Origin: Acidimicrobiales bacterium
GTDB lineage: Bacteria > Actinomycetota > Acidimicrobiia > Acidimicrobiales > Bog-793
DNA length: 64,000 nucleotides
Assembly (NCBI GenBank): GCA_035533595.1
Contig: DATLTN010000027.1
Coordinates: 1-64,000 of the forward strand
Direction of reading: 5' to 3'
The notes below the pieces were generated by a model, which searched no databases, had not been told where the DNA came from, and worked only from the letters and a program-made list of their open reading frames with translations. Below, piece after piece: positions 27,375-52,852 of the stretch; position 1 is the first letter of the stretch; every line of letters starts with the position of its first letter. A program made the position numbers and the translations under genes.

Positions 27375-28135
27375 ATGACCGTGAAGACCAACGAGCGCCC
27401 CGGCACCCGCGCCGTGCTGCGCCACAGCCACATGTCGAGCACCAAGGCGCGCGAGGTCCTCGACCTCATCCGCGGCCTCGACTACGTCTCGGCGGCCCAG
27501 ACCCTCGAGTACACCGAGCGCGCCGCGAGCGTGCCGATCGCGAAGCTGCTGCGCTCGTGCGCGGCGAACGCCGAGCACAACGAGGGCCTCGACCCGACCG
27601 AGCTCTACGTGGCCACCTGCTACGCCGACGAGGGCGAGACGATGAAGCGCTGGCGGCCACGGGCACGCGGGCGCGCGACGCGCATCCGCAAGCGCACCTG
27701 CCACGTGACGATCATCCTCGCCCGCATGCCCGACGACCGCCTCGCCCGTCGCCGGGCGCGCGTCGCCGCCGACCTCGCCGACCGCCGCGCACGGCGCGTC
27801 GCCGGGACCCGCCGCCGCGACGAGCAGGTCGCAGCCGCCGCCGAGGTGGAGGGCCTCGAGGAGCTCGAGACGAGCGTGACCGACGAGGCCGTCGCCGAGG
27901 CGATCGAGGCCTCCCCGGAGACGACCGTCGCCGAGATCGAGGAGACGGTCACGAGCGAGGAGAGCGTCCCCGCAGAGGACGCGACCGCAGAAGCCGAGAG
28001 CGCAGCACCCGAGGCCGAGGCGACCGCCGACGCCGGGGAGGCTGCAGCCGGGGAAGACGCAGCAAAGGCCGGGGAGGACTCCCCGGCCGTGGAGGAGGGC
28101 GCCACCGACGCCGCCTCCGAGGAGGGAGAAGGCTG

Positions 28136-28136
<1 letters not shown>
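27375..28136 (+). CDS. rplV: 50S ribosomal protein L22 with very long acidic tail
   Basis: L22 lines the exit tunnel at its constriction. The core is about 118 residues and contains the beta-hairpin region ending [19 protein letters not shown] basic helical segment follows (about 119-148), then about 100 residues dominated by Glu and Ala, to a total of 253. Ordinary L22 is 110-120 residues; actinobacterial versions are often extended, and this one is at the long end. Overlaps rpsC by one base (TGATG). Confidence 0.95.
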
Positions 28137-40230: not shown

Positions 40231-40827
40231 GTGAGCGAGGCGCGCATCGACTTCGGCACCCCGGCTGCCTGCCGTGGCGCCGACGTCGGCCAGCTCAGTC
40301 GGCTCCTCTGTAGCGCCGCGAGGGGGCACGCCACCCACGCCGTGATCTCTCCCGACGACGCCGGGGTCGCGCCCCGCCTCGTCGAGTTCTCGCACGTCAG
40401 CTCCGCGAACGGCAAGGTTGACCTCGACTTCCCCGCCGCCGAGCTCGCCGGCTTCCCAGAGGCGGTCCACTACGAGGTGCCGCCACCTCTGACGACGAGG
40501 CAGATCATCGCCAGCAACCTCGCCGGCGGCCGCTACGGCCTCGGCTTCCAGATCCCGCCGCTCGCGGCGCGCGAGGTGGTCCCGCCGGGGGAGGCGCCAC
40601 TCGACGCCTACACCAGGGTGCAGGCCACCGACGGCCCCGCCGGGCGGCTCGACGGCGTCATCGTCGAGATGACGAGCGGAGCGCTCGTCGCCCTCGTCGT
40701 CCACCACGGCCACCTCTTCTCGCGGCGCCAGGTCGCGGTGCCGATCGCCCTCGTCACCGACTACGGCGACGGCATCTCGCTCTCGGTCACCCGCGAGTCC
40801 CTCGACGACGCCGCAAGAGAGCTTTGA
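40231..40827 (+). CDS. Two-repeat PRC-barrel-like protein, unknown function
   Basis: A 198-residue protein with a GTG start. The second half has a PRC-barrel pattern, a beta strand pair around DGPAGRLDGVIVEMTSGALVAL followed by FSRRQVAVPIALVTDYG (about 130-185). The first half has a weaker copy around CRGADVGQLSRLLC and HATHAVISPDDAG (about 14-48). PRC barrels occur in RimM and in photosynthetic reaction centres, where they bind RNA or protein surfaces. No function is known for this gene. It sits between rplQ and truA and overlaps truA by four bases, so a link to RNA or ribosome metabolism is possible but unproven. Confidence 0.6.
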   Translation: MSEARIDFGTPAACRGADVGQLSRLLCSAARGHATHAVISPDDAGVAPRLVEFSHVSSANGKVDLDFPAAELAGFPEAVHYEVPPPLTTRQIIASNLAGGRYGLGFQIPPLAAREVVPPGEAPLDAYTRVQATDGPAGRLDGVIVEMTSGALVALVVHHGHLFSRRQVAVPIALVTDYGDGISLSVTRESLDDAAREL

Positions 40828-41660
40828 GCGAGGCCGCGCCGCAGCTCGCGCCCCAGCCGGTGCGCGTCGTCCTGCACTGCTCGTACGACGGGAGCGGCTT
40901 CCACGGCTTCGCCACCCAGCGAGGGCAGCGCACCGTGCAGGGGGCCCTCGAGGCGGCGCTCGAGCAGATCACCGGCGCTGCCGCAGAGACCGGCTGCGCG
41001 GGGCGCACCGACACCGGGGTGCACGCCGTCGCGCAGGTGGTGCACGCCGATGTCGATCCCGCCTACCTCGAGCGCCTCGGCCTCGCCGCCGAGCCCTTCG
41101 CCGAGGTGGTGCCGCTCAGCCGTTCGCTCTCGAAGATCCTCGCCCCCGACGTCGTCACCCGGCGCGCCTTCGTCGCCCCGGAGGGCTTCGACGCCCGCCG
41201 CAGCGCGACTGCCCGCCGCTACCGCTACGTGATCGACTGCGGCGACCGTCGCGACCCGCTCTACCGCGCCGCCTCGTGGCACCTCCCGGGGGAGCTCGAC
41301 CTCGCGGCGATGCGCGTCGCGGCCGATGCGCTCTGCGGTGAGCACGACTTCTCGGCGTTCTGCCGTCAGCCGAAGGGGCGCGAGCCGGGTCCGCTTCGGC
41401 GGCGGGTGATCGGCACGCGCTTCACCCGCGACGACGCGCTCGTCTGCTTCGAGATCGAGGCGAACGCCTTCTGCCACCAGATGGTGCGCTCGATCGTGGG
41501 GATGCTCGTCGCCGTCGGCCGCGGGCGGCGGACCGCCGCCGAGGTGGCGGCGCGCCTGCGCGCACCTGACCGCGGCGGCCTCCCCTCACCGGCGCCGGCG
41601 ATCGGCCTCTGCCTGATTGCGGTCGAGTACCCCGAGCACCTCGGCGGGGCCGTGCGCTGA
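40824..41660 (+). CDS. truA: tRNA pseudouridine(38-40) synthase TruA
   Basis: A 278-residue enzyme that isomerises uridines 38-40 in the anticodon stem-loop of tRNAs. The catalytic Asp lies in AGRTDTGVHAVAQV (about residue 61; here CAGRTDTG). Other family parts are YDGSGFHGFATQ at the N-terminus and FCHQMVRSIVGMLVAVGRG near the C-terminus. The TTG start overlaps the stop of the PRC-barrel gene. In related genomes rplM follows; here an 11-kb region lies between them. Confidence 0.95.
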   Translation: MSEAAPQLAPQPVRVVLHCSYDGSGFHGFATQRGQRTVQGALEAALEQITGAAAETGCAGRTDTGVHAVAQVVHADVDPAYLERLGLAAEPFAEVVPLSRSLSKILAPDVVTRRAFVAPEGFDARRSATARRYRYVIDCGDRRDPLYRAASWHLPGELDLAAMRVAADALCGEHDFSAFCRQPKGREPGPLRRRVIGTRFTRDDALVCFEIEANAFCHQMVRSIVGMLVAVGRGRRTAAEVAARLRAPDRGGLPSPAPAIGLCLIAVEYPEHLGGAVR

Positions 41661-41920: not shown

Positions 41921-42436
41921 GTGATCGAGCAGCGGGTGCTCAGCCTGCAGGACGCGCGTCGGGTGATCGACGCCGTGATCGCCCACGCGGAGCAGCACGA
42001 TCATGACGGCATCGCGGTGTTCGTCGTGGACAAGGCCGGTGACATCATCGCCTCCGCGCGCATGGACCGGCGCTCGGCGCGTTTCGGCAAGGCGGCGCAC
42101 CGCAAGGCCTACACCGGCGCGACCTTCGAGCGCGACACCGCCGGTGTGATCAAGTTCTGGAACGAGCAGGAGCAGCGGGGCCATCGGGGTCCGCACGACT
42201 GGAACGACCCGATGGTCACCACCCTCCCCGGCGGCATGGTGGTCGCCTTCGGTGACCAGGTGGTCGGCGGGATCGGGGTTGCCGGCGGCAACGCGCACAT
42301 CGGTGACGAGGAGTTCGCGGACGTCGCCTTCGCCGCGCTCGGTGAGGGCTTCCACCACTACATCGACTGGCCGCAGCGGGTCCGGCGTGACACCTCGGGC
42401 GCGCCGTCCGACGGACAAGACAGGGCGCGCTCCTAG
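41921..42436 (+). CDS. GlcG/HbpS-family protein (first copy)
   Basis: A 171-residue protein with a GTG start. The GlcG/HbpS (DUF336) core runs from the SLQDARRVIDAVIAHAEQ helix through VFVVDKAGDIIASARMD and AHRKAYTGATF to GGIGVAGGNAHIGDEEFADVAFAAL. Family members include a heme-binding extracellular sensor partner and a protein of the glycolate operon, but most have no known job. There is no signal peptide, so it is probably cytoplasmic. A second copy at 50534-51019 is highly similar, including RGHRGPHDWNDPM-type sequence (GHRGPHDWNDPM in both). The GntR gene is 52 bases downstream and likely co-transcribed. Confidence 0.8.
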   Translation: MIEQRVLSLQDARRVIDAVIAHAEQHDHDGIAVFVVDKAGDIIASARMDRRSARFGKAAHRKAYTGATFERDTAGVIKFWNEQEQRGHRGPHDWNDPMVTTLPGGMVVAFGDQVVGGIGVAGGNAHIGDEEFADVAFAALGEGFHHYIDWPQRVRRDTSGAPSDGQDRARS

Positions 42437-42488
42437 CTCTCGCACGGGACCTGCGAATTCAAAGAGTCTTGGCATCGAGGGAGTACAC

Positions 42489-43145
42489 GTGACCCAGTTC
42501 GTACGGCCGATCACGGCACACGAGGCGATTCTCGGCGAATTGCGGCGGCTGATCGTCTCTCGCGAGCTCCCCCCCGGCAGCAAGATCATCCAGGAACAGC
42601 TCGCGAACCAGCTGGGCGTGAGCCGCGTGCCGGTACGCGAGGCGCTGAAGCTCCTTGAGGGCGAGGGGCTGATCCGCACCGAGCCCCATCGCGGCACGTA
42701 CGTCGTCGAGGTCTCGCCCGAGGAGCTGCTCCAGATCGTGCAGCTGCGGGGCATCATCGAGACGGACGCGCTCGCGGTGTCATTGCCGGCGATCGGCGAC
42801 GACGAGCTGGGGACGATGGAAGCCTGCCTGGCGACGATGGACGCGGCCGCGGAGGTCGGCGACTCGCGCAGCCTCGGGCTCGCGAACCGGCGGTTTCACC
42901 TGGCGATCGTCGAACCGTCGGGTTGGGACCGCTACATCCGGCTGCTCAACCAGCTGTGGGACAACTCCGAGCCGTACTGGTCCTACACGAGCTCGGACCC
43001 CGAGGTGCACGCGCGCCGGAAGGCCGAGCACACTGCGATCCTTGCGGCGGTGCGCGCCCGCGACCTCGCCCTCGTCGCGGAGCTTCTCGACGCGCACCGC
43101 ATGGATGCGATCGAAACCACCATGGAGAGGCTCACCTCGCGCTGA
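42489..43145 (+). CDS. GntR-family transcriptional regulator, FCD (FadR-like) subgroup
   Basis: A 218-residue regulator. The N-terminal winged helix (about 1-75) includes IIQEQLANQLGVSRVPVREAL and LEGEGLIRTEPHRGTYV. The C-terminal FCD domain (about 80-205) has the scattered Asp/His positions that bind a metal and an organic acid (RRFHLAIVEPSGWDRY; EHTAILAAV; DAHRMDAIE). Such regulators usually repress catabolic operons until an acid effector binds. The GTG at 42489 has a GAGGGAG site upstream. It probably controls the surrounding island; candidate operators are listed separately. Confidence 0.9.
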   Translation: MTQFVRPITAHEAILGELRRLIVSRELPPGSKIIQEQLANQLGVSRVPVREALKLLEGEGLIRTEPHRGTYVVEVSPEELLQIVQLRGIIETDALAVSLPAIGDDELGTMEACLATMDAAAEVGDSRSLGLANRRFHLAIVEPSGWDRYIRLLNQLWDNSEPYWSYTSSDPEVHARRKAEHTAILAAVRARDLALVAELLDAHRMDAIETTMERLTSR

Positions 43146-43179
43146 CCCGGCCGGCTGATTTCGGCCGGATCGCAGTGCG

Positions 43180-43208
43180 TTGACATTTAATACCGTAAAC
43201 CGTATCCT
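43180..43208 (+). promoter_or_regulatory. Near-consensus promoter for the binding-protein gene
   Basis: TTGACA (43180-43185) and TATCCT (43203-43208) are separated by 17 bases. The -35 box is a perfect consensus match, and AT-rich sequence lies in the spacer. An operator-like TGTATTCA starts at 43208, overlapping the downstream edge. The transcript would start near 43215, about 70 bases before the GTG. Confidence 0.75.
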
Positions 43209-43284
43209 GTATTCAGTCGGGTTTACGACGGGGGACGACCGCGTCACTGCTGCTCTGGCGCGCGGTCAGAAATGGGGGAAAACG

Positions 43285-44592
43285 GTGCGTAAAAAGGCGA
43301 TGTCTGTGCTGGCAGCGTGCTTGGCCTTCGGGGGGGTGGTCGGCACCTCGGTGACGGCGGCCGCGTCGAGCCAGCCGCGTTTCAGTGGGTCACCGGTGGT
43401 CATTCCGTTGCTCAGCCCCTTCTCCGGGGGCTCCGCGTTCATCGGGCAGTTGGGCTACGCGATCGCCGTGCCCGCCGCCTACGAGATCAACAACGCCGGG
43501 GGGATCCTCGGCCATCAGCTCACGCTGGCGGAGATCGACACCAAGAACGACCCCGCTGACGCGCTCCCGTTGATGCAGCAGTTCCTCGCGACGCACTCCA
43601 ACGTGGTGGCGATCGCCGGTCCACAGAGCACCGAGGCGCCGACGCTCGTCCCGATCCTCAACAAGGACAAGATCGTGATGTTCGGCGGCGCGGGCGAGTC
43701 CGAGTTCAACCGCAGCCCGTACAACTTCTTCTGGCGCACCAACCCGCCGGACTCGGCGAACGGCATCTCGATGGCGATCTACGCCAAGCGGCTGGGCGAC
43801 CTGCGCGTCGCCACGGTCTTCGGCTCGGACCAGGGCTCCCAGGGCGACCTGCCGGGCGTGCTCACGGCGATCAAGGAACTCCACCTCGATCTCGTCTCAC
43901 AGGTCAACCTGCAGCCCGACCAGCCGTCGTACCAGTCCCAGGTGGCGCGGCTGATCTCCGAGCACCCGCAGGCGATCATGACCGAGACCGACCCGCAGTC
44001 TGCCGGCACGTTCTTCGGCGAGTGGTTCCAGCAGAACCCCAAGGCGACCAGCACCAAGCTCATCGGCACCGAGGCGAGCGCGCTCCCGACGTACATCCAG
44101 GCGGTGCAGGGCGCGATCGGCAAGAGCAAGTTCGCCCAGACCTTCGCCGGCGTGGTCGAGTCCGTGTCCAGCCCGAACCCCGCCACGAACCTTGAGAAGC
44201 AGGGACTCGTGGCGAACAAGTCGAAGATCCCGAACGCGCTCAGCTACCTGCAGAACCCCTTCTTCCTCGGGGGGTACGGGAGCTTCATCCTCGAGGCGCT
44301 CGCGATGACGGCCGCGCACTCGATCAAGCCGTCGGTCTACAACAGCTTCATCAACGGCGTCGGCAATCCCGGTCCGGGCAAGGTCGTCGTCTACAGCTAC
44401 GCGAAGGGCGTCCAGCTGCTGAAGCAGGGGAAGAAGATCCAGTACATCGGCCCGGCGGGCCCCTACAACTTCAACAAGTGGCACAACTCCTTCGCCGGGC
44501 AGGTGGCCGAGCAGTACCTCGCCAACGGATCAGTGAAGCCCCTTCCCAACGGGGTGGTCACCACCAGCCAGATTCAGAAGTACCCCGGCTGA
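43285..44592 (+). CDS. Branched-chain-amino-acid-type ABC binding protein (LivK type)
   Basis: A 435-residue periplasmic-type (extracellular) binding protein. The signal peptide has the basic start MRKK, a hydrophobic core and probable cleavage after TAAA-type residues (about 27-31). The mature part has the family pattern: PLLSPFSGGSAFIGQLGYAI, NNAGGILGHQLTLAEIDTKND and VVAIAGPQSTEAPTLVPIL. The GTG at 43285 has GGGGGA upstream; longer frames from 43180 overlap the promoter and are rejected. The family also carries amides, aromatic acids and short-chain compounds, so leucine uptake should not be assumed. Confidence 0.9.
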   Translation: MRKKAMSVLAACLAFGGVVGTSVTAAASSQPRFSGSPVVIPLLSPFSGGSAFIGQLGYAIAVPAAYEINNAGGILGHQLTLAEIDTKNDPADALPLMQQFLATHSNVVAIAGPQSTEAPTLVPILNKDKIVMFGGAGESEFNRSPYNFFWRTNPPDSANGISMAIYAKRLGDLRVATVFGSDQGSQGDLPGVLTAIKELHLDLVSQVNLQPDQPSYQSQVARLISEHPQAIMTETDPQSAGTFFGEWFQQNPKATSTKLIGTEASALPTYIQAVQGAIGKSKFAQTFAGVVESVSSPNPATNLEKQGLVANKSKIPNALSYLQNPFFLGGYGSFILEALAMTAAHSIKPSVYNSFINGVGNPGPGKVVVYSYAKGVQLLKQGKKIQYIGPAGPYNFNKWHNSFAGQVAEQYLANGSVKPLPNGVVTTSQIQKYPG

Positions 44593-44617
44593 TCCCTCCC
44601 GCGGATTGCAGCACTTG

Positions 44618-44669
44618 GTCGGGCCGCTGGGCTCCGGACGACGACGGTCGCCCCGGAGCCCAGCCCGAC
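44618..44669 (+). terminator. Long hairpin between binding protein and permease genes
   Basis: GTCGGGC (44618-44624) and TGGGCTCCGG (44628-44637) pair with CCGGAGCCCA and GCCCGAC (44653-44669), giving a 17-bp stem with a three-base bulge and a 15-base loop. It lies 25 bases after the stop. It probably lowers transcription into the permease genes or protects the 3' end of the binding-protein message, a common device in ABC operons. Confidence 0.7.
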
Positions 44670-44734
44670 GCCTTGGCCGCTGAGCGGCACGGCACCATCT
44701 CGCGCGATGCGCAGACAAGGGGAAGTAGCTGGCG

Positions 44735-45622
44735 GTGCAACTCCTAGCTTCGGGGATCGGCTTCGGGATCGTGAGCGGCGCCGTGCTCGCGCTCGGCGCG
44801 ATGGGCTTCTCGCTGCAGTTCGGGATGACGAACGTGCTGAATCTCGCCTACGGCTCGCTGATGAGCATGGGCGCGCTCGTCGCACTCCTGCTGAATGAGA
44901 ACGGGGTCTCGATCTGGGTCGCTGCCCTGCTCGCGGCGGTCGCCGTCGCCCTCACCTCGCTGCTCATCGGGAGCACGATCTACCGCGCCTTCGCCCGACG
45001 GGGGGCACGGCTGTTCACGATGGCGATCCTGTCGGTCGCGGTGTCCTTGATCGTCGACTTCGGGATGGGGGCGATCACCCGTAGCAACGTCTACCAGTTC
45101 TCCTTTCCGCAGGGCGCCATCCACGCCTTCCTCGGGATGACCTTCACGACGACCCAGCTGATCATCGTCGCCTCCGCTGCCGTCATCGTCGCCCTCCTCG
45201 AAGGGATGCTGCACTACACCAAGCTCGGCGTCGCGATCCGCGCCACCGCGGCGAACACCGCGCTCGCCCGAGCCTCGGGGATCCGCACCTCGCTCGTCGT
45301 GACGGTGACGTGGCTCACCTCGGGTGCGCTCTGCGGCCTCGGCGGGGTGGCGCTCGCCCTCAGCTACCTCACGGTCTCGTTCCAGACAGGGACGACGTTC
45401 CTCCCCTACATCCTCGCGGCGGTGATCGTGGCCGGCATCGGGGCCGTCGGGTACGCGGCCCTGTCGGCCCTCATCCTCGCGCTCGCCATCCAGATCTCAG
45501 GAGCCTTCGGCGCCGCCGAGTACAACGTGGTGATCGCGGTGGGGGTGCTCCTCGTGATGCTGATGGTGCGACCGCAGGGCTTCTTCGGTGAGCTCTGGGA
45601 GAAGGTCCAGGTGACCGCGTAG
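44735..45622 (+). CDS. ABC transporter permease, LivH type
   Basis: A 295-residue inner-membrane protein with about eight membrane helices, starting with the family pattern GIGFGIVSGAVLALGAMGFSLQFG (about 6-28). The coupling segment between helices carries GVAIRATAANTALARASGI (about 165-183), where it contacts the ATPase. It lies 142 bases after the binding-protein gene. Its stop overlaps the next gene by one base (TAGTG). A GTG start is used; no strong ribosome-binding site is seen next to it. Confidence 0.88.
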   Translation: MQLLASGIGFGIVSGAVLALGAMGFSLQFGMTNVLNLAYGSLMSMGALVALLLNENGVSIWVAALLAAVAVALTSLLIGSTIYRAFARRGARLFTMAILSVAVSLIVDFGMGAITRSNVYQFSFPQGAIHAFLGMTFTTTQLIIVASAAVIVALLEGMLHYTKLGVAIRATAANTALARASGIRTSLVVTVTWLTSGALCGLGGVALALSYLTVSFQTGTTFLPYILAAVIVAGIGAVGYAALSALILALAIQISGAFGAAEYNVVIAVGVLLVMLMVRPQGFFGELWEKVQVTA

Positions 45623-46728
45623 TGAGCTACTACCTGGCGACCATCGTCATCTACTTCGGCGTCTACGGCCTCGGCGCGCTCGCCCTCAACCTCCAGATCG
45701 GCCTCAGCGGGATCGCCAACTTCGGCTTCATCATCTTCGAGTCCGCCGGGGCCTACGCCGCGGCGATCACGAGCATCGGCCCCGCCTCGAACGGCCACGC
45801 GCTGAGCGAGACCTACTTCTGGGGGATCAATCTCCCCTTCCCGCTGCCGCTCCTCGCGGGCGCGTTGGCGGGCGGCCTGCTCGCGCTCATCATGGGCCCC
45901 GTCACGATGCGCAAGATGCGACGCGACTACCAGGCGGCGACGATGCTCGCGATCAGCATCATCGCCACGCAGGTGATCTCCAACGACATCCACATCTTCA
46001 ACGGGAACGCCGGGCTCGCGGCGGTGCCCTCGCCGCTCAGTGGCCACCTCAACGTCTCCACCGCAACCTATGACTGGATCTACGCGGGGTACGCGATGGT
46101 GCTCACGGCCATCGGCTACGTCATCTGCAAGCGGATCAGCATGTCGCCGTTCGGCAGGTCGCTGCGGGCGCTGCGCGACGACGACGACGCCGCGGCCTCG
46201 ATCGGCAAGTACGCCTGGGCGATGAAGATGAAGGTCTTCGTCGCCGGCGGGGCGATCGCCGGCCTCGCCGGCGCGTTGCTCGTCCAGTACATCGGTGCGT
46301 GGTCCCCTGCGGCGTGGCAGTACGCCGAGACCTTCGTGCTGTTGCAATGCGTCATCCTCGGTGGGATCGCGAACGACAAGGGCGCGCTCCTCGGCGCCTT
46401 CGTGGTCGGCGTCTTCCTCGCCGAGGCGCCCTCCTTCCTCCCGGCGATCGGCTACCCGGGGCTGATCAACAACCTGCAGTGGATCCTCATCGGGGTCGTC
46501 TACATCATCGTCTTGTGGTTCCGACCGCAGGGGCTGATACCCGAGCGAGGGAGCCTGCGACTGGCGGTCAACCCGGCCTTCGACGCGCTCACCGGCGGCT
46601 CGGACCGCCCCCGCCGGCTGCGCCGCCGCAGTGCCACCTCCCGCCCGGGCGTGGCGAGCACGGCCGACGCGACCGCGCCAGGAAGCGCTGCCGTCGCCAC
46701 CACCGGGCCCGCTGTCGGGCCGCGCTGA
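45622..46728 (+). CDS. ABC transporter permease, LivM type
   Basis: A 368-residue permease with about nine to ten membrane helices, the usual partner of LivH. Family segments include GLGALALNLQIGLSGIANFG near the N-terminus and FGRSLRALRDDDDAAASIGKYA (about 175-195), the cytoplasmic coupling loop. The last 50 residues are a hydrophilic extension rich in Arg, Ala and Thr. The GTG overlaps the upstream stop codon. Confidence 0.88.
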   Translation: MSYYLATIVIYFGVYGLGALALNLQIGLSGIANFGFIIFESAGAYAAAITSIGPASNGHALSETYFWGINLPFPLPLLAGALAGGLLALIMGPVTMRKMRRDYQAATMLAISIIATQVISNDIHIFNGNAGLAAVPSPLSGHLNVSTATYDWIYAGYAMVLTAIGYVICKRISMSPFGRSLRALRDDDDAAASIGKYAWAMKMKVFVAGGAIAGLAGALLVQYIGAWSPAAWQYAETFVLLQCVILGGIANDKGALLGAFVVGVFLAEAPSFLPAIGYPGLINNLQWILIGVVYIIVLWFRPQGLIPERGSLRLAVNPAFDALTGGSDRPRRLRRRSATSRPGVASTADATAPGSAAVATTGPAVGPR

Positions 46729-46729
46729 G

Positions 46730-47497
46730 GTGGCGATCGCGGAGGGCCTCGGCGTCGAGAAGATCGTCGTCACCTACGGCGGCGTGCGTGCCGTCGACGG
46801 CGTCTCGATCGACTTCCGAGCGGGGGCCGTGACCGGGCTGATCGGCCCGAACGGCGCCGGGAAGACGTCGCTGCTGAACGTCATCGCCGGCGCGCTGCGG
46901 GGGGCCGGTGGAACGGTGCGGCTGTTCGGCGAGGACGTGAGCCGTCTCTCGTCCGACGCGCGGGGGCGGCGGGGGATACTCCGCACCTTCCAGACGGCGC
47001 GCACCTTCGAGCGTCTGAGCGTCGTCGACAACCTCATCGTCGCCCAGCCCGAACAGCGCGGCGACCGCCTCCTCACGGCGTTGCTGCGGCCGCGCAGCTG
47101 GACGGCGCAGGAGCGGGCCGCTCGGGCCCGTGCCCTCGAGCTCCTCGACCTGTTCGGCATGACCAGCCACGCCGAGGTGCGCGCCGACCAGCTCTCCGGT
47201 GGCCAGCGCAAGATCGTCGACTACCTGCGGGCGCTGATGGCGAACCCGAAGGTGCTGCTCCTCGACGAGCCCTCGGTGGGCCTCGCGCCGGGGGTGCTCG
47301 AACGCCTCAGCCAGGACCTCGAGCGGATGAAGGGCGCGGGGGTCTGCATCGTGCTCGTCGAGCACGAGATGGAGTTCATCCGCAAGTCCTGTGACCACGT
47401 GGTCGCGATGGCCAACGGCTCGGTCGTCACCCAGGGGAGCTTCGAGACGGTCGCGGCGAACGACGACGTGCGCGCCGCCTACCTGGGCCGCCGATGA
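46730..47497 (+). CDS. ABC transporter ATPase, LivG type
   Basis: A 255-residue ATPase. Walker A is GPNGAGKTS (about 38-46), the signature is LSGGQRKIVDYLRAL and Walker B is VLLLDEPSVGLAPG, followed by the switch His in LVEHEMEF. The family's extended helical region precedes the signature. The GTG at 46730, one base after the LivM stop, gives a standard N-terminus; the longer open frame runs back into livM and is not used. It overlaps the LivF-type gene by four bases. Confidence 0.92.
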   Translation: MAIAEGLGVEKIVVTYGGVRAVDGVSIDFRAGAVTGLIGPNGAGKTSLLNVIAGALRGAGGTVRLFGEDVSRLSSDARGRRGILRTFQTARTFERLSVVDNLIVAQPEQRGDRLLTALLRPRSWTAQERAARARALELLDLFGMTSHAEVRADQLSGGQRKIVDYLRALMANPKVLLLDEPSVGLAPGVLERLSQDLERMKGAGVCIVLVEHEMEFIRKSCDHVVAMANGSVVTQGSFETVAANDDVRAAYLGRR

Positions 47498-48255
47498 GCG
47501 ACCGCCTGCGGGTCGAGGAGCTGTCCGCCGGCTACGCCGAGCCCGTCGTGCGCGGCGTCAGCTTCTCGAGCGCGCCGGGGGAGATCGTCGCCATCGTGGG
47601 CGCGAACGGTGCCGGCAAGAGCACGATCTTGAAGACGATCATGGGCGAGGCGCGCGCGCACTCCGGTCGCATCCTCTACGAGGAGGAGGAGGTGACCGGC
47701 CGCCACGCCGATTACCTCAGCCGTCTCGGCGTCGGCTACGTCCCGCAGCTGCACGACGTCTTCCCGGGTCTGTCGGTGATGGAGAACCTGAAGATGGGCG
47801 GTTACCTGTTGTCGCGGGCACTGCTCGGTCAGCGCATCGAGGCATCGCTGGAGCGCTTTCCGCAACTGCGTGCCAAGCGGGGCACGTCGGCGCACAAGCT
47901 CTCGGGGGGCGAGCGCAAGCAGCTCGCGCTCGCGCGGGCGCTGATGACCGAGCCGTCGCTCATCCTCCTCGACGAGCCGACCTCCAACCTCTCGCCGAAC
48001 ATCGCCGACGACCTGCTCTACCGCTACGTGCCATCGCTCGCCCAGGAGGGTCGCAGCGTCGTGCTCGTCGAGCAGCGCGTCGAGGCGGCGCTCACGAACG
48101 CGCACCGGGGGTGCCTGATCGGCGGCGGCACGATGCGCCGCGCGGGGACGGCGGCCGACGTCCTCGATTTCGTGCGGGAGCACGGGCTGCTCGTCGACAC
48201 GGCGAGCGAGCAGGCCAAGGGTGCCGGCGGTCGGCCGGACGAAAGCGAGGCGTGA
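47494..48255 (+). CDS. ABC transporter ATPase, LivF type
   Basis: A 253-residue ATPase, the second of the pair that powers LivH/LivM-type permeases. Walker A is GANGAGKST, the signature is LSGGERKQLALARA and Walker B is LILLDEPTSNLSPN. The C-terminus is extended by about 15 residues. The first RidA-like gene starts at the base after its stop codon, so transporter and enzymes are expected on one mRNA. Confidence 0.92.
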   Translation: MSDRLRVEELSAGYAEPVVRGVSFSSAPGEIVAIVGANGAGKSTILKTIMGEARAHSGRILYEEEEVTGRHADYLSRLGVGYVPQLHDVFPGLSVMENLKMGGYLLSRALLGQRIEASLERFPQLRAKRGTSAHKLSGGERKQLALARALMTEPSLILLDEPTSNLSPNIADDLLYRYVPSLAQEGRSVVLVEQRVEAALTNAHRGCLIGGGTMRRAGTAADVLDFVREHGLLVDTASEQAKGAGGRPDESEA

Positions 48256-49011
48256 ATGCACAGCTTCACCGAGGTCTTCCGGAGCTTCGATCCGATCCCC
48301 GTCGGCTACCGCAACGGCGCCCTCGTGACCGGGCTGCGCATCGACGGCCGCGACCCCGACAGTGGCGAGCTCGGCCACGGCATCGAGGCGCAGCTGGCCA
48401 ATGCCTACGAGAACCTCCGGCGCGCCGTCGAGGCGGCCGGTGGCAGCACCGACAACATCGGGCAGGTGAGCTTTTTCCTCGCGGACTTCGACGACCGCGC
48501 GGCGATCAACCCCCCCTGGGTCGCGATGTTCCCCGACGAGAACGACCGGCCCACCTACAAGTTCATGCCCGCCCCCCTCCCCGAGGGGGAGCTCGTGCAG
48601 ATGGAGTTCTACGCGGTGCTGGGCGAGCGGCGGACCGACATCCACCTCACGGGGGTCGCGCACGCGAACCCGATCCCGATGGCGGTGCGGATCGGCGCCT
48701 ACCTGTTCAGCTCGCGGGTGCTCGCCTATGACCCCGCGACCGCGCAGCCCGCCGAGGGCAACGAGGCGCAGGCGCGCTTTCTCTACGAGAACGTCAACGC
48801 GGTGATCGACGCCGCGGGGATGTCCTGGTCCGACGTCGTGCAAGGTCGCGGCTTCCTCGCCGACCTCGCCGAGGAGCCGCTGCTCGGGGGGCCGTGGGCC
48901 GAGCGCTTCCCCGACGCCGCCGCCCGCCCGCCGCTGCACCTCGTCCGCTACGGCGCCGGGGCGCTGCGCGTGATGCTTGAGATCGTCGCCGAAGAGGGAG
49001 CAGGCCAGTGA
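48256..49011 (+). CDS. Two-domain RidA-like protein, copy 1
   Basis: A 251-residue protein with two RidA (YjgF/YER057c) domains in a row (about 1-122 and 123-251). Domain 1 has the family pattern GLRIDGRDPDSGELGHGIEAQ, then LRRAVEAAGGSTDNIGQVSFFL and a final strand LVQMEFYAVLG. RidA proteins hydrolyse reactive enamines or imines, or deaminate related compounds. The catalytic Arg of classical RidA (in the segment before the last strand) is replaced here by the sequence RPTYKFM, so chemistry may differ. It is the first of three tandem paralogues and overlaps the second by four bases. Confidence 0.8.
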   Translation: MHSFTEVFRSFDPIPVGYRNGALVTGLRIDGRDPDSGELGHGIEAQLANAYENLRRAVEAAGGSTDNIGQVSFFLADFDDRAAINPPWVAMFPDENDRPTYKFMPAPLPEGELVQMEFYAVLGERRTDIHLTGVAHANPIPMAVRIGAYLFSSRVLAYDPATAQPAEGNEAQARFLYENVNAVIDAAGMSWSDVVQGRGFLADLAEEPLLGGPWAERFPDAAARPPLHLVRYGAGALRVMLEIVAEEGAGQ

Positions 49012-49778
49012 GTGGGTTGCACACGCTGTTCGAGGTCTATCCGGAGGCGGCACGGGCGACGCTCCCTCTCGGGCTGCGCGTCGAGGACCTCGTCGTCGCC
49101 GGCGGCATCAACGGTTGTGACCCGGAGACCGGTGAGCCGGTCGGCGGCCTCGAGGAGCAGGTCGCCGCGGCGTACCAGAAGATGGCCTTCCTGATGGAGA
49201 GCGCTGGGGGCTCCCTCGACAACGTCGGCCGCGCCGTGGCCTACGTCACCGACATTGAGCACCGTGAGCCGGTCAACGGCCAATGGTGGGAGGCGGTCTT
49301 CCCGGATCCGGCCGACCGCCCGGCGTACAAGGTCATCCTCGCCGAGCTCCCTCCGGGTGAGCTCGTGCGCCTCGACTTCGTGGGCGTGCTCAACGCGAGG
49401 AGGACGCGCTTTGACCTGCCGGGGATACCGGCGCGGGACCCGACGGTGCGCATCGGCGAGATGATCTTCAGCTCGCGCTGCCACGGCATCGACGGCGCGA
49501 CGGGCGAACTCGCCCCCGGTGGCCTCGTCCCCGAGGCGGCCCGGACCTTCCAGACGCTGCGCGAGCTCGCGGTGGCCGCCGGAGGCTCCCCTCACGACAT
49601 CGTGCAGCTGAACGCGTTCGGCAAGACCGCGGACTACATCGCGCCGGCGCGCGCGGAGTTCGCACGCGCCTTCGCCGACATCGACCCGAAGCCGGCCTTC
49701 AACCCGCTCGTGAACTTCATCACCCCGCGCTTTGAGATCAGCGTGGAGATGATCGCGGTCGTCGGGGGCCAACGATGA
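49008..49778 (+). CDS. Two-domain RidA-like protein, copy 2
   Basis: A 256-residue paralogue of the neighbouring gene, with two RidA domains (about 1-125 and 126-256). Domain 1 shows LVVAGGINGCDPETGEPVGG-type sequence (VVAGGINGCDPETGEPVGGL) and GGSLDNVGRAVAYVTDIE; domain 2 shows GGSPHDIVQLNAFGKTADYI and ends VEMIAVVG. The classical Arg position reads RPAYKVI. The GTG overlaps the upstream stop and the end overlaps the third copy. Sequence differences between the copies suggest divergence rather than recent duplication. Confidence 0.8.
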   Translation: MSGLHTLFEVYPEAARATLPLGLRVEDLVVAGGINGCDPETGEPVGGLEEQVAAAYQKMAFLMESAGGSLDNVGRAVAYVTDIEHREPVNGQWWEAVFPDPADRPAYKVILAELPPGELVRLDFVGVLNARRTRFDLPGIPARDPTVRIGEMIFSSRCHGIDGATGELAPGGLVPEAARTFQTLRELAVAAGGSPHDIVQLNAFGKTADYIAPARAEFARAFADIDPKPAFNPLVNFITPRFEISVEMIAVVGGQR

Positions 49779-50521
49779 CCGCGCCGATGCTGCGCGAGGT
49801 CTTCATCGACCCGCAGGGCGGTGCGCCGGCCGACGGGATGCGCATCGGCGACCTCGTCTTCGCGCCCCTGCTCCGGGCTCGACCGGCGGGCGGCCCGGCC
49901 GGCGAGGAGCGCACCCGTGCCCAGCTCGCCGAGGTGCTCGACACGATGGACCGCTTCCTCGACGCCGCCGGCGCGACGCGAGGCGACGTCGTGCGCGTCA
50001 CCTTCTTCCTCCGCGACGTGCTCGAGCGCCCGATCCTGAACGACGTCTGGGAGCGTTGGTACCCGGACGCCGCCGACCGGCCGCCGCACAAGTACGTGCC
50101 CGGTGTCCATCCCGACGGAGTGAACGTCGCGATCCAGGTGCTCGCCCTGTTGGGTGCCCGTCGCGAGGTGCTCGAGATCCCCGGCGTGCAGCACGGCGAT
50201 CCGATGTCGATGGGCGCCCTCACGGCGAACCTCGTCACCTCCTCGCGGCTGTTCGGCGCGCAGGAGGACCTCGACGACCAGATCACGCTGATCCTGGAGC
50301 GCGCCGCGATCCTCCTCGGCGGAGCGGGCGGCGGCCTCGGGAACCTCACGCAGGCGACGTTCTTCGTCGGGTCGGGGGAGATCGGCGAGGCGGTCCGCCG
50401 GCGCTGGGACGCCGAGCCGCCGGCGGAGGGCGCGCGGATGCACATCATCGAGGCGGATCTCGGGGGTGGCAACGGCTACCCGCGGGTGGAGATCCTCGGC
50501 CTCGTGGACCATCAAGAGTAA
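49775..50521 (+). CDS. Two-domain RidA-like protein, copy 3
   Basis: A 248-residue, more divergent paralogue. Domain 1 has MDRFLDAAGATRGDVVRVTFFLRD and RPPHKYV at the classical Arg position, ending VAIQVLALLG. Domain 2 has GGLGNLTQATFFVGSGEIGEA and is shorter at the end. The three copies are likely to form mixed or separate trimers, as RidA domains do, but two-domain chains could close a ring differently. It lies 12 bases before the second GlcG/HbpS-like gene. Confidence 0.75.
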   Translation: MTAPMLREVFIDPQGGAPADGMRIGDLVFAPLLRARPAGGPAGEERTRAQLAEVLDTMDRFLDAAGATRGDVVRVTFFLRDVLERPILNDVWERWYPDAADRPPHKYVPGVHPDGVNVAIQVLALLGARREVLEIPGVQHGDPMSMGALTANLVTSSRLFGAQEDLDDQITLILERAAILLGGAGGGLGNLTQATFFVGSGEIGEAVRRRWDAEPPAEGARMHIIEADLGGGNGYPRVEILGLVDHQE

Positions 50522-50533
50522 GGAGGTCGGCCG

Positions 50534-51019
50534 GTGATCGAACTGAAGACTCTCAGCCTCGAGGACGCGAACCGCGTGATCCAGGCCGTCTCGGCGGCGG
50601 CGCTCGAGGCCAACCCGCGGATGTGGCCGGGCCTCGGCATCGTCGTCGTCGACAAGTACGGCCAGATCATCGCGGCGGCCCGCATGGACGGCATGGCGCC
50701 GCGCTTCTTCCATGCTGCGCACCGCAAGGCGTACACCGCGGCGGTGATGGAGCGGGACACCGCGGGCGTCATCGAGTTCTGGAACCGACAGGAGAAAGAG
50801 GGGCACCGCGGCCCGCACGACTGGAACGACCCGATGCTCACGACGCTGCCCGGCGGCTACGTCGTACGCCACGGAAGCCAGATCCTCGGCGGCATCGGCG
50901 TGGCCGGCGGCACCACCTCACCGCACGGGGACGACGACTTCGCGGAGATCGCCATCTCGGCGCTCGGCGAAGGGTTCCGCCACACCCCGAACTGGGAGCC
51001 GAAGGTGCCCGGTGACTGA
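50534..51019 (+). CDS. GlcG/HbpS-family protein (second copy)
   Basis: A 161-residue homologue of the protein at 41921-42436, with the same core: SLEDANRVIQAVSAAALE, IVVVDKYGQIIAAARMDG, AHRKAYTAAVMERDTAGVIEFW and GGIGVAGGTTSPHGDDDFAEIA. A GGAGG site (taaggaggtcggccg) precedes its GTG. The two copies sit at the two ends of the transporter and RidA block. Heme binding, if any, cannot be concluded from sequence because ligand residues vary in this family. Confidence 0.8.
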   Translation: MIELKTLSLEDANRVIQAVSAAALEANPRMWPGLGIVVVDKYGQIIAAARMDGMAPRFFHAAHRKAYTAAVMERDTAGVIEFWNRQEKEGHRGPHDWNDPMLTTLPGGYVVRHGSQILGGIGVAGGTTSPHGDDDFAEIAISALGEGFRHTPNWEPKVPGD

Positions 51020-51024
51020 CTCCG

Positions 51025-51053
51025 TGGACGGCGTCGCGCGAATTGCATACAAT
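51025..51053 (+). promoter_or_regulatory. Predicted promoter with overlapping operator for the Rieske oxygenase gene
   Basis: TGGACG (51025-51030) and TACAAT (51048-51053) are separated by 17 bases. The -10 box lies within ATTGCATACAAT (51042-51053), whose complement reads ATTGTATGCAAT and shares TGTATGCA with the sites upstream of the other island genes. A repressor bound here would block the promoter. Confidence 0.65.
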
Positions 51054-51088
51054 ATGTTTGATCCGCAAAGGTAAGAGGGAGGAGCACC

Positions 51089-52390
51089 GTGCCGGTCTTC
51101 ACCGATGAGAGCGACATGCTCAATCACACTGGCCCCGGAACTCCGATGGGTGAGCTGCTGCGCCGCTTCTGGGTGCCGGTGCTGCTCGCCGAAGAGCTCC
51201 CGGGCCCGTGGAGCCCGCCCGTGCGGACGACGCTGCTCGGCGAGCGCCTCGTGGCCTTCCGCGACACCGAGGGGCGCATCGCCTTCCTCCAGGAGTTCTG
51301 CGCCCACCGTCGCGCCTCGCTGTTCTTCGGGCGCAATGAGAGCGAGGACTCGCCCGACCACAAGGCGGGCCTCCGCTGCGCCTACCACGGCTGGAAGTAC
51401 GACGTCACCGGGCAGTGCATCGACATGCCGAACGAGCCCGAGAACAGCCGCTTCAAGGAGCACGTGCAGATCACCTCCTACCCGGGGGTCGAGCGCGGCG
51501 GGGCGATCTGGGCCTACCTCGGCCCCCCGGAGCTGATCCCGGACCTGCCCGACCTCGAGTGGTGCGTCGTCCCGAGCGACTACCGCTACCTCTCCAAGCG
51601 CTTCGAGAGCGTCTGCTTCACCCAGGCGATGGAAGGCGGGATCGACTCGAGCCACGTCTCGTTCCTCCACGCCGACGCCGGGTACTGGCAGGGCTACGGG
51701 GAGCTCATCGATCCCGTGGTGATGACCCACGACACCGCTCCCCGCTTCTTCGTGGAGCCGACCGAGTACGGCCTGCTGATCGGTGCCCGTCGCGACGCGG
51801 CGGACGGCGGCTACTACTGGCGGGTGACGCAGTGGATCATGCCCGTCTTCCAGTACATCCCGAGGACCGGCGACGGCGCGATCGGCGGCCACGCGTGGGT
51901 GCCGATCGACGACACGCACTGCTGGGCCTGGAGCATCACCTACCACCCCGACCGTCCCCTCACCGACGCGGAGGTGCACTCCTGCACCGACGGCCTCGGC
52001 ATCCACGTCGAAGCCATCCCCGGCACGTCGTTCGCCGCGCAGAACGAGGAGAACGACTACAAGATCGACCGTCGCCTGCAGGCGCACATGCTCTCGCTGA
52101 GCGGGATCTACGGCGTCGGCGCTCAGGACCAGGCGATGCAGGAGAGCATGGGGCCCGAGTCCGACGCGAGCCGCGATCATCTCGGAAGCTCCGACGCCGC
52201 GATCATCGCGATGCGCAAGCGCCTCATCGCCGAGGCGCGCGCGCACGCCGAAGGCGGTGAGCCGACCGGCCTCGACCCGATGGTCCAGCGCGTGCGCTCG
52301 ACCTCCGCGTTCTTGAGCGAGGACCAGGACTGGACCGTCGCCACCGCGGAGCAGCGGCGAGCGGTCTCGCGTCACTACTCCGGGGTCTAG
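51089..52390 (+). CDS. Rieske non-heme iron oxygenase, large (alpha) subunit
   Basis: A 433-residue oxygenase of the phthalate 4,5-dioxygenase type. The Rieske [2Fe-2S] ligands are C71, H73, C97 and H100 (CAHRRASLFFG ... CAYHGWKYD), with 23 residues between H73 and C97, several more than usual. The mononuclear iron site shows D176-x2-H179-x4-H184 (DSSHVSFLH). Such enzymes add one or two oxygen atoms to an aromatic ring or demethylate, using electrons from a reductase. No reductase or small subunit is encoded nearby, so electrons must come from elsewhere. GTG start after AGAGGGAGGAG. Confidence 0.9.
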   Translation: MPVFTDESDMLNHTGPGTPMGELLRRFWVPVLLAEELPGPWSPPVRTTLLGERLVAFRDTEGRIAFLQEFCAHRRASLFFGRNESEDSPDHKAGLRCAYHGWKYDVTGQCIDMPNEPENSRFKEHVQITSYPGVERGGAIWAYLGPPELIPDLPDLEWCVVPSDYRYLSKRFESVCFTQAMEGGIDSSHVSFLHADAGYWQGYGELIDPVVMTHDTAPRFFVEPTEYGLLIGARRDAADGGYYWRVTQWIMPVFQYIPRTGDGAIGGHAWVPIDDTHCWAWSITYHPDRPLTDAEVHSCTDGLGIHVEAIPGTSFAAQNEENDYKIDRRLQAHMLSLSGIYGVGAQDQAMQESMGPESDASRDHLGSSDAAIIAMRKRLIAEARAHAEGGEPTGLDPMVQRVRSTSAFLSEDQDWTVATAEQRRAVSRHYSGV

Positions 52391-52522
52391 TTCCGCCCGG
52401 GGTGCGCACCGGCATCGCGGCGGGGAGCCGAGGCGCACCGCCGCCGTCTGCAGGCCTCGCCTTTGCAGTTGCTCGGCGCGCGAGCGTCGCCAGGCCGTGC
52501 CGCCGGCACGCGAAGGAGCACC

Positions 52523-52852
52523 GTGGCTGTTGATCTCGAGTTCGAAAAGTTCCGCGACTACCTCGCGATCCCCTACGTCGCGGTCATCTACTCGCTCGAG
52601 CGGGAGGACGGGGAGTGGGTCCGGCGGGCGGAGTACCCCGAGCTGCCGGAGTGTGCCGCGGAGGCGGAGTCGGCCACCGAGGCCATCGAGCTGCTCGAGG
52701 CCGAGCGCGTCCGGGTGATCGTCGAGATGGTCCGCCGCGGTGACGAGCCGCCGCGACCGCGACCGCCGCTGCGCTCGGGGGTCTCCGGGCTCTCCTCGTT
52801 GCCGTCGCGGGAGCTGTTCCTCATGGTCCAGTCCAAGGCCGCCGGGGCGTAG
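52523..52852 (+). CDS. Solitary HicB-like protein
   Basis: A 109-residue protein with a GTG start behind AAGGAG (52513-52518). Residues about 18-75 match the HicB antitoxin fold: VIYSLEREDGEWVRRAEYPE, LPECAAEAESATEAIELLEAE and the GDEPPRP turn. No HicA toxin gene lies on either side, and the C-terminal 35 residues do not show a helix-turn-helix. It may be an orphan regulator or a leftover of a module. Position between the oxygenase and rplM gives no functional hint. Confidence 0.65.
   Translation: MAVDLEFEKFRDYLAIPYVAVIYSLEREDGEWVRRAEYPELPECAAEAESATEAIELLEAERVRVIVEMVRRGDEPPRPRPPLRSGVSGLSSLPSRELFLMVQSKAAGA

Follow-up and report, generated by a model that had tools for sequence, protein, structure and literature searches.

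Three consecutive two-domain Rid genes lacking the classical arginine in a probable gene cluster for uptake and oxidation of an aromatic acid

The RidA fold usually serves to detoxify reactive imines. In a 64,000-nt stretch of DNA from an Acidimicrobiales bacterium (the window), three consecutive forward-strand genes encode proteins with two Rid domains each: protein 1 (48256..49011, 251 aa), protein 2 (49008..49778, 256 aa) and protein 3 (49775..50521, 248 aa). A sequence-only reading of this DNA had described three adjacent genes for fused RidA pairs, and the open reading frames and the Pfam matches agree with it, as do AlphaFold predictions for proteins 1 and 3; the coordinates and the motifs that it gave (RPTYK, RPAYK and RPPHK) match the sequence exactly. 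Profile matches from Pfam, together with the fold from AlphaFold and Foldseek, place all three proteins in the Rid superfamily. PF01042 is their sole significant Pfam family (E-values of 5e-20, 5e-15 and 6e-13 for proteins 1, 2 and 3), with two matching stretches each in genes 1 and 2 and a single one, in the N-terminal half, in gene 3; the second domain of protein 3 (domain 3b) is without a Pfam match and owes its Rid identity to structure. Because all three score far under the cut-offs of the NCBIfam Rid models, they are to be regarded as diverged Rids. The genes overlap by 4 bases at both Rid–Rid junctions, and the first starts immediately (gap of 0) behind the stop of a gene for a LivF-type ABC transporter ATPase (47494..48255, forward strand, by Pfam), a spacing that would allow translational coupling behind the Liv-type transporter.

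The surrounding genes, all on the forward strand, form a cluster. It begins with a gene for an HbpS-like protein (41921..42436; PF03928, 4.6e-21) and a FadR-type GntR regulator (42252..43145; PF00392 and PF07729), the true start of which is probably downstream of the ORF start. These are followed by a periplasmic binding protein, two Liv permeases and a LivG-type ATPase (43180..47497; PF13458, PF02653 twice and PF00005), which complete the Liv-type transporter with the LivF-type ATPase, and by the three Rid genes. Behind them lie another HbpS-like protein of the DUF336/GlcG/EfgA superfamily (50534..51019; PF03928, 1.1e-21; PDB matches 4nkp, EfgA 6bws and HbpS 3fpv) and the alpha subunit of a Rieske ring-hydroxylating oxygenase (51089..52390; PF00355 and PF19301; PDB 9ina, 3.6e-114). 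Within the cluster there is no gene for a reductase, a ring-cleavage dioxygenase or a dehydrogenase. A small protein at 52463-52852, HicB-like by eye and without a Pfam hit, resembles one encoded at L070:15272-15604, near a Rieske paralogue (71% identical, contig C47) and with an adjacent cupin gene. The whole cluster (41921-52852) is flanked by truA (40824-41660) and by rplM-rpsI-glmM-glmS (53054 on), genes that are usually closely consecutive, and it looks like a catabolic island inserted in a ribosomal protein region. Elsewhere in the window, an ORF at 27375-28136 encodes a ribosomal protein L22-like product of 253 aa in total with a long acidic, Ala/Glu-rich C-terminal tail.

To place the catalytic residues, we aligned 32 Rid domains, among them the six window domains, E. 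coli RidA (in what we take to be its reference sequence; HI0719 is a close relative of it), the archetypal RidA of the same genome, 16 single-domain relatives and each domain of two triple-Rid proteins. At the column of E. coli R105, protein 1 has Y101 in its first domain and L227 in its second, and protein 2 has Y107 and F231; protein 3 has H105 and M222, with the gap placement in this last domain (ARMHII) uncertain by one or two residues. Arg at this column is thus found in 0 of the 6 window domains versus all 16 single-domain relatives. Both RidA sequences of the alignment have it too, and so do domains 1 and 2 of the triple-Rid proteins. The Arg that marks RidA and Rid1–3 is therefore missing from every window domain, as is the cleft Arg (Arg117) of the AmnE type, and its absence is a trait shared with Rid4–Rid7. 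In the models of proteins 1 and 3, the fifth core strand of every domain starts at the residue of this column, which supports the register of the alignment.

The sequence-only reading had reported the classical Arg as missing from the first domains and replaced by a segment reading RP-x-x-K. The absence holds in the first domains (Y/Y/H) and extends to the second domains (L/F/M), and shifting the alignment brings no Arg to the catalytic position. The Lys of the segment, on the other hand, is not a replacement: the triple-Rid proteins, from the same genome and from a genome of the same family, read RPARK and RPSRK and so hold both residues, which rules out the Lys as a displaced Arg. In these triple-Rid proteins (L025:7228-8337 and L029:7742-8878), the first two domains have the catalytic Arg and the third has Phe or Trp, so that each is a mixed fused Rid trimer.

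The nearest sequences to the window domains are single-domain Rids from Actinomycetota, Pseudomonadota and Bacillota, mostly in catabolic clusters, with 34-40% identity for domains 1a, 1b and 2a and 28-31% for the others. Many adjoin amidohydrolase, FAH, RraA or meta-cleavage genes, and sometimes Rieske genes. Relatives in catabolic clusters of the 2-aminomuconate-deaminase kind would be expected if the window proteins were ordinary Rid-type imine/enamine deaminases that hold the carboxylate by other residues. However, R105 is reported to be essential for imine hydrolysis, a Salmonella Rid7 without it was inactive (PMC4433059), and E120 is absent in all six domains as well, so we consider an ordinary deaminase very unlikely. 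In the domain tree, E. coli RidA and the RidA of the same genome group together and apart from the window domains; clustering with plain RidA, which would have told against the sequence-only reading, was not found. Plain RidA is excluded by this clustering and by the residues at the R105 column. The tree is otherwise poorly resolved, too poorly for dating the fusion; the first domains of proteins 1 and 2 group (96/78), and several window domains are on long branches.

At a strict cut-off, neither the 397 genomes searched within the order nor the 396 sampled across the phylum gave another strong match to a two-domain profile. A scan of genome contigs yielded 12 loci, but no two-domain match at any of them, and a plasmid search returned single-domain relatives only, with both halves of the query matching one domain. 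In the absence of a two-domain relative outside the same genome among the genomes searched, conservation rests on few sequences. Within the same genome, contig C73 (L026:7643-8482) carries a two-domain Rid gene that is 66% identical to protein 2 over 172 aa, has Y and H at the R105 column and adjoins FAH and amidohydrolase genes. Its frame is broken and a stretch is missing, through either decay into a pseudogene or an assembly error.

The broken frame of this copy and the long branches in the tree are what one would see if the window genes were relaxed duplicates drifting toward pseudogenes. Yet all three are intact, coupled frames with a third-position GC of 0.91-0.95, similar to that of neighbouring genes. 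Comparison of protein 2 with the C73 copy gave a dN of 0.24 and a dS of 0.65 (dN/dS ~0.38; NG86, 163 codons), which indicates purifying selection. Drift toward pseudogenes is thus highly improbable.

Single-chain structure prediction, a check that the earlier reading had proposed, was carried out with AlphaFold2 for proteins 1 and 3, and bore out the fused architecture: each modelled chain contains two complete tandem Rid folds (mean pLDDT of 89.8 and 89.0, respectively). In Foldseek searches, protein 1 matched single Rid structures and, over its whole chain, chorismatase 5ag3_B (TM 0.60). For protein 3, seven chorismatase chains (5a3k, 5ag3, 4bps) ranked above every single Rid, with TM 0.62-0.64 over ~270 columns; across both proteins, the rmsd of the chorismatase matches was 4.5-5.2. 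Since the solved chorismatase structures are Rid-like chains of two domains, a whole-chain match says that the packing of one half against the other resembles theirs.

These matches raise the prospect that the fold, once fused, became free to take on non-imine chemistry, such as enol ether hydrolysis of a chorismatase-like kind or, more loosely, an AtzD-like ring opening, in either case outside the classical cleft. Chorismatases of the FkbO/Hyg5 type do have two diverged Rid-like halves, but a match to solved chains of this build would be expected of any Rid with two domains. Chorismatases are also larger (~330 aa versus ~250 aa here) and share only 14-18% identity and a TM of ~0.6 with the window proteins. 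A profile of the three Rid proteins found no chorismatase among PDB sequences at E<0.01, and no Pfam family other than PF01042 is significant. AtzD cyanuric acid hydrolase and barbiturase are thought to derive from concatenated YjgF units; AtzD is described as having its active site in the central barrel (PMC3758960), and by this precedent concatenated Rid units can relocate an active site. AtzD, however, requires three units, each with a Ser-Lys dyad, whereas the modelled window chains have two, and neither AtzD nor barbiturase matches the window proteins. We therefore regard such chemistry outside the cleft as unlikely.

The pocket itself shows a further change. Seven residues line the pocket of TdcF: Tyr17, Gly31, Asn56, Asn88, Arg105, Pro114 and Glu120; Gly-31 is conserved because any side chain at this position would clash, in particular with Glu-120 (PMC1884159). 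In all three C-terminal domains of the window proteins, the Gly-31 position is occupied by Arg, within the motif SSR (R154, R157 and R158 in proteins 1, 2 and 3). The same Arg is found in the C-terminal domain of the C73 paralogue and, as R28, in domain 1a of protein 1, and in none of the 16 single-domain relatives. The C-terminal domains share only 19-27% mutual identity and 10 invariant columns, and this Arg is among them. The E120 position reads Q, M, R, S, A and R in domains 1a, 1b, 2a, 2b, 3a and 3b, so that the Glu of RidA and Rid1–3 is missing throughout. Glu120 is thus gone from the very C-terminal domains that carry the new Arg (M, S and R in proteins 1 to 3; S in the C73 copy), so that one change suits the other. 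Judged by alignment, this paired change is what would be expected of a pocket rebuilt around a new Arg. Its side chain presumably faces the cleft, as the homologous position does, and may bind a carboxylate. Arg105, Glu120 and Tyr17 are lost in all six domains and Asn88 is kept only in the first domains; given the loss of Y17, E120 and often N88, the clefts could also simply be dead.

The neighbouring oxygenase provides a clue to the substrate. Its closest PDB relative, 9ina, is the isophthalate dioxygenase identified in PMC12445078. Reading the chain against the published numbering with a 23-residue offset, we found that the carboxylate-binding R234 and H257 are kept, as are I246, I294, G172 and V178, while T175 is replaced by Ser, F249 by Thr and F333 by Val. 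The substrate of the Rieske oxygenase is therefore probably an aromatic acid whose two acidic groups are meta to each other, accommodated in a ring pocket of different shape. For the imported compound, the likeliest candidate is an aromatic (di)carboxylic acid or a nitrogen-containing analogue. O-demethylation was considered as the Rieske reaction on account of a LigXa-type C-terminal domain and the EfgA-like neighbour; dihydroxylation of the aromatic acid is the simpler reading, because the closest solved structure is an isophthalate dioxygenase. The gene cluster as a whole seems to serve the uptake and oxidation of an aromatic acid. A search with the Rieske oxygenase gave 17 matches (E<=1e-25) in this 2.8 Mb genome, which is apparently rich in ring-hydroxylating oxygenases.

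The HbpS-like protein encoded directly after the Rid genes (50534..51019) is a superfamily relative of EfgA, a formaldehyde sensor (PMC8153426). Taken with the loss of R105 and E120 from all six domains, this relationship would suit a non-catalytic complex for binding, scaffolding or sensing, such as one that carries or protects a reactive Rieske product while its HbpS-like partner acts as an aldehyde or redox sensor. But the homology to EfgA (6bws) is distant (E 7e-7), and a new conserved Arg at a pocket position goes beyond mere loss of function; we hold a non-catalytic role to be unlikely.

The linkage of fused Rid and HbpS-like genes recurs. Contig C11, from the same genome, has Rieske, triple-Rid and HbpS-like genes next to one another; two genomes of the same family have triple-Rid and HbpS-like genes followed by EutA-like and cupin genes; and three of the five HbpS-like genes of the window's own genome are in Rid-fusion loci. 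The association is thus repeated rather than a single accident. The loci in the two related genomes (L029:6622-11850 and L030:675-4835) share the order triple-Rid, HbpS-like, EutA-like and cupin, with an amidohydrolase gene preceding the Rid gene in L029, and this set may be a conserved module that has not yet been described. A close Rieske homologue on a Phyllobacterium plasmid (L083) is likewise flanked by homologues of the EutA and cupin genes. A literature search for clusters of Rid, Rieske and HbpS genes found nothing specific.

Several known systems share parts of this arrangement. The single-domain catabolic Rids, including AmnE (PDB 6izh), have the fold and the link to aromatic catabolism in common with the window proteins. 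AmnE is a 2-aminomuconate deaminase of an aromatic meta-cleavage pathway and a homohexamer of two back-to-back trimers (PMC6742747); 2-amino-5-carboxymuconate 6-semialdehyde deaminase is likewise a Rid protein of such a pathway (PMC6449761). AmnE is a precedent for one particle with six Rid domains, in two trimers, and six is also the number that the three two-domain chains would supply. In contrast to the window genes, which encode two domains each and lack the Arg, AmnE (R117) and the relatives with RPARH keep it and have one domain per gene. Rid4–Rid7 resemble the window domains in lacking the catalytic Arg; Rid4 and Rid7 have Trp in its place, and Rid5 and Rid6 a variable residue (Niehaus et al. 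2015, PMC4433059); compared by description, they are single-domain proteins that keep the Glu, whereas the window chains have two domains and have lost it. The 3x-RidA and other tandem Rid fusions of the same survey also place several Rid domains in one chain, with three fused domains in 3x-RidA versus two here; the survey describes 3x-RidA as linked trimers, and notes two-domain fusions as rare and omits them (PMC4433059).

We tentatively favour, at somewhat less than an even chance, the view that the Rid genes encode a diverged, heteromeric, two-domain catabolic Rid assembly with a rebuilt pocket that acts on a Rieske-derived intermediate. In this mechanism, the three Rid chains would assemble together, their six domains forming two Rid rings by analogy with AmnE. 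The rebuilt clefts would bind a carboxylated intermediate formed after the Rieske step, with the Arg at the Gly-31 position replacing R105, and the Rid assembly would then hydrolyse or deaminate the bound intermediate. The stricter proposal of an enzyme of three unlike two-domain chains and six distinct domains, which has given up the classical Arg site and uses the new Arg for a new reaction on the Rieske product, is possible but doubtful. Since the Arg is lost in all six domains and the genes belong to what seems to be an aromatic-acid cluster, these Arg-less domains probably have a job other than imine detoxification.

Rid domains without the Arg have been described before, as have fused Rid proteins, and the 2015 survey of the family left its Arg-less subfamilies without a known biochemical function (PMC4433059); we found no published report of the two combined in three coupled genes. 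The locus offers a concrete case of Arg-less Rids, with a defined operon of uptake system, oxygenase and HbpS-like partner, a clear swap of residues and a testable assembly of three chains. If the proposed function is true, a new catabolic enzyme would have arisen from the Rid trimer by gene fusion and duplication, and Arg-less Rid domains would gain a function open to assay.
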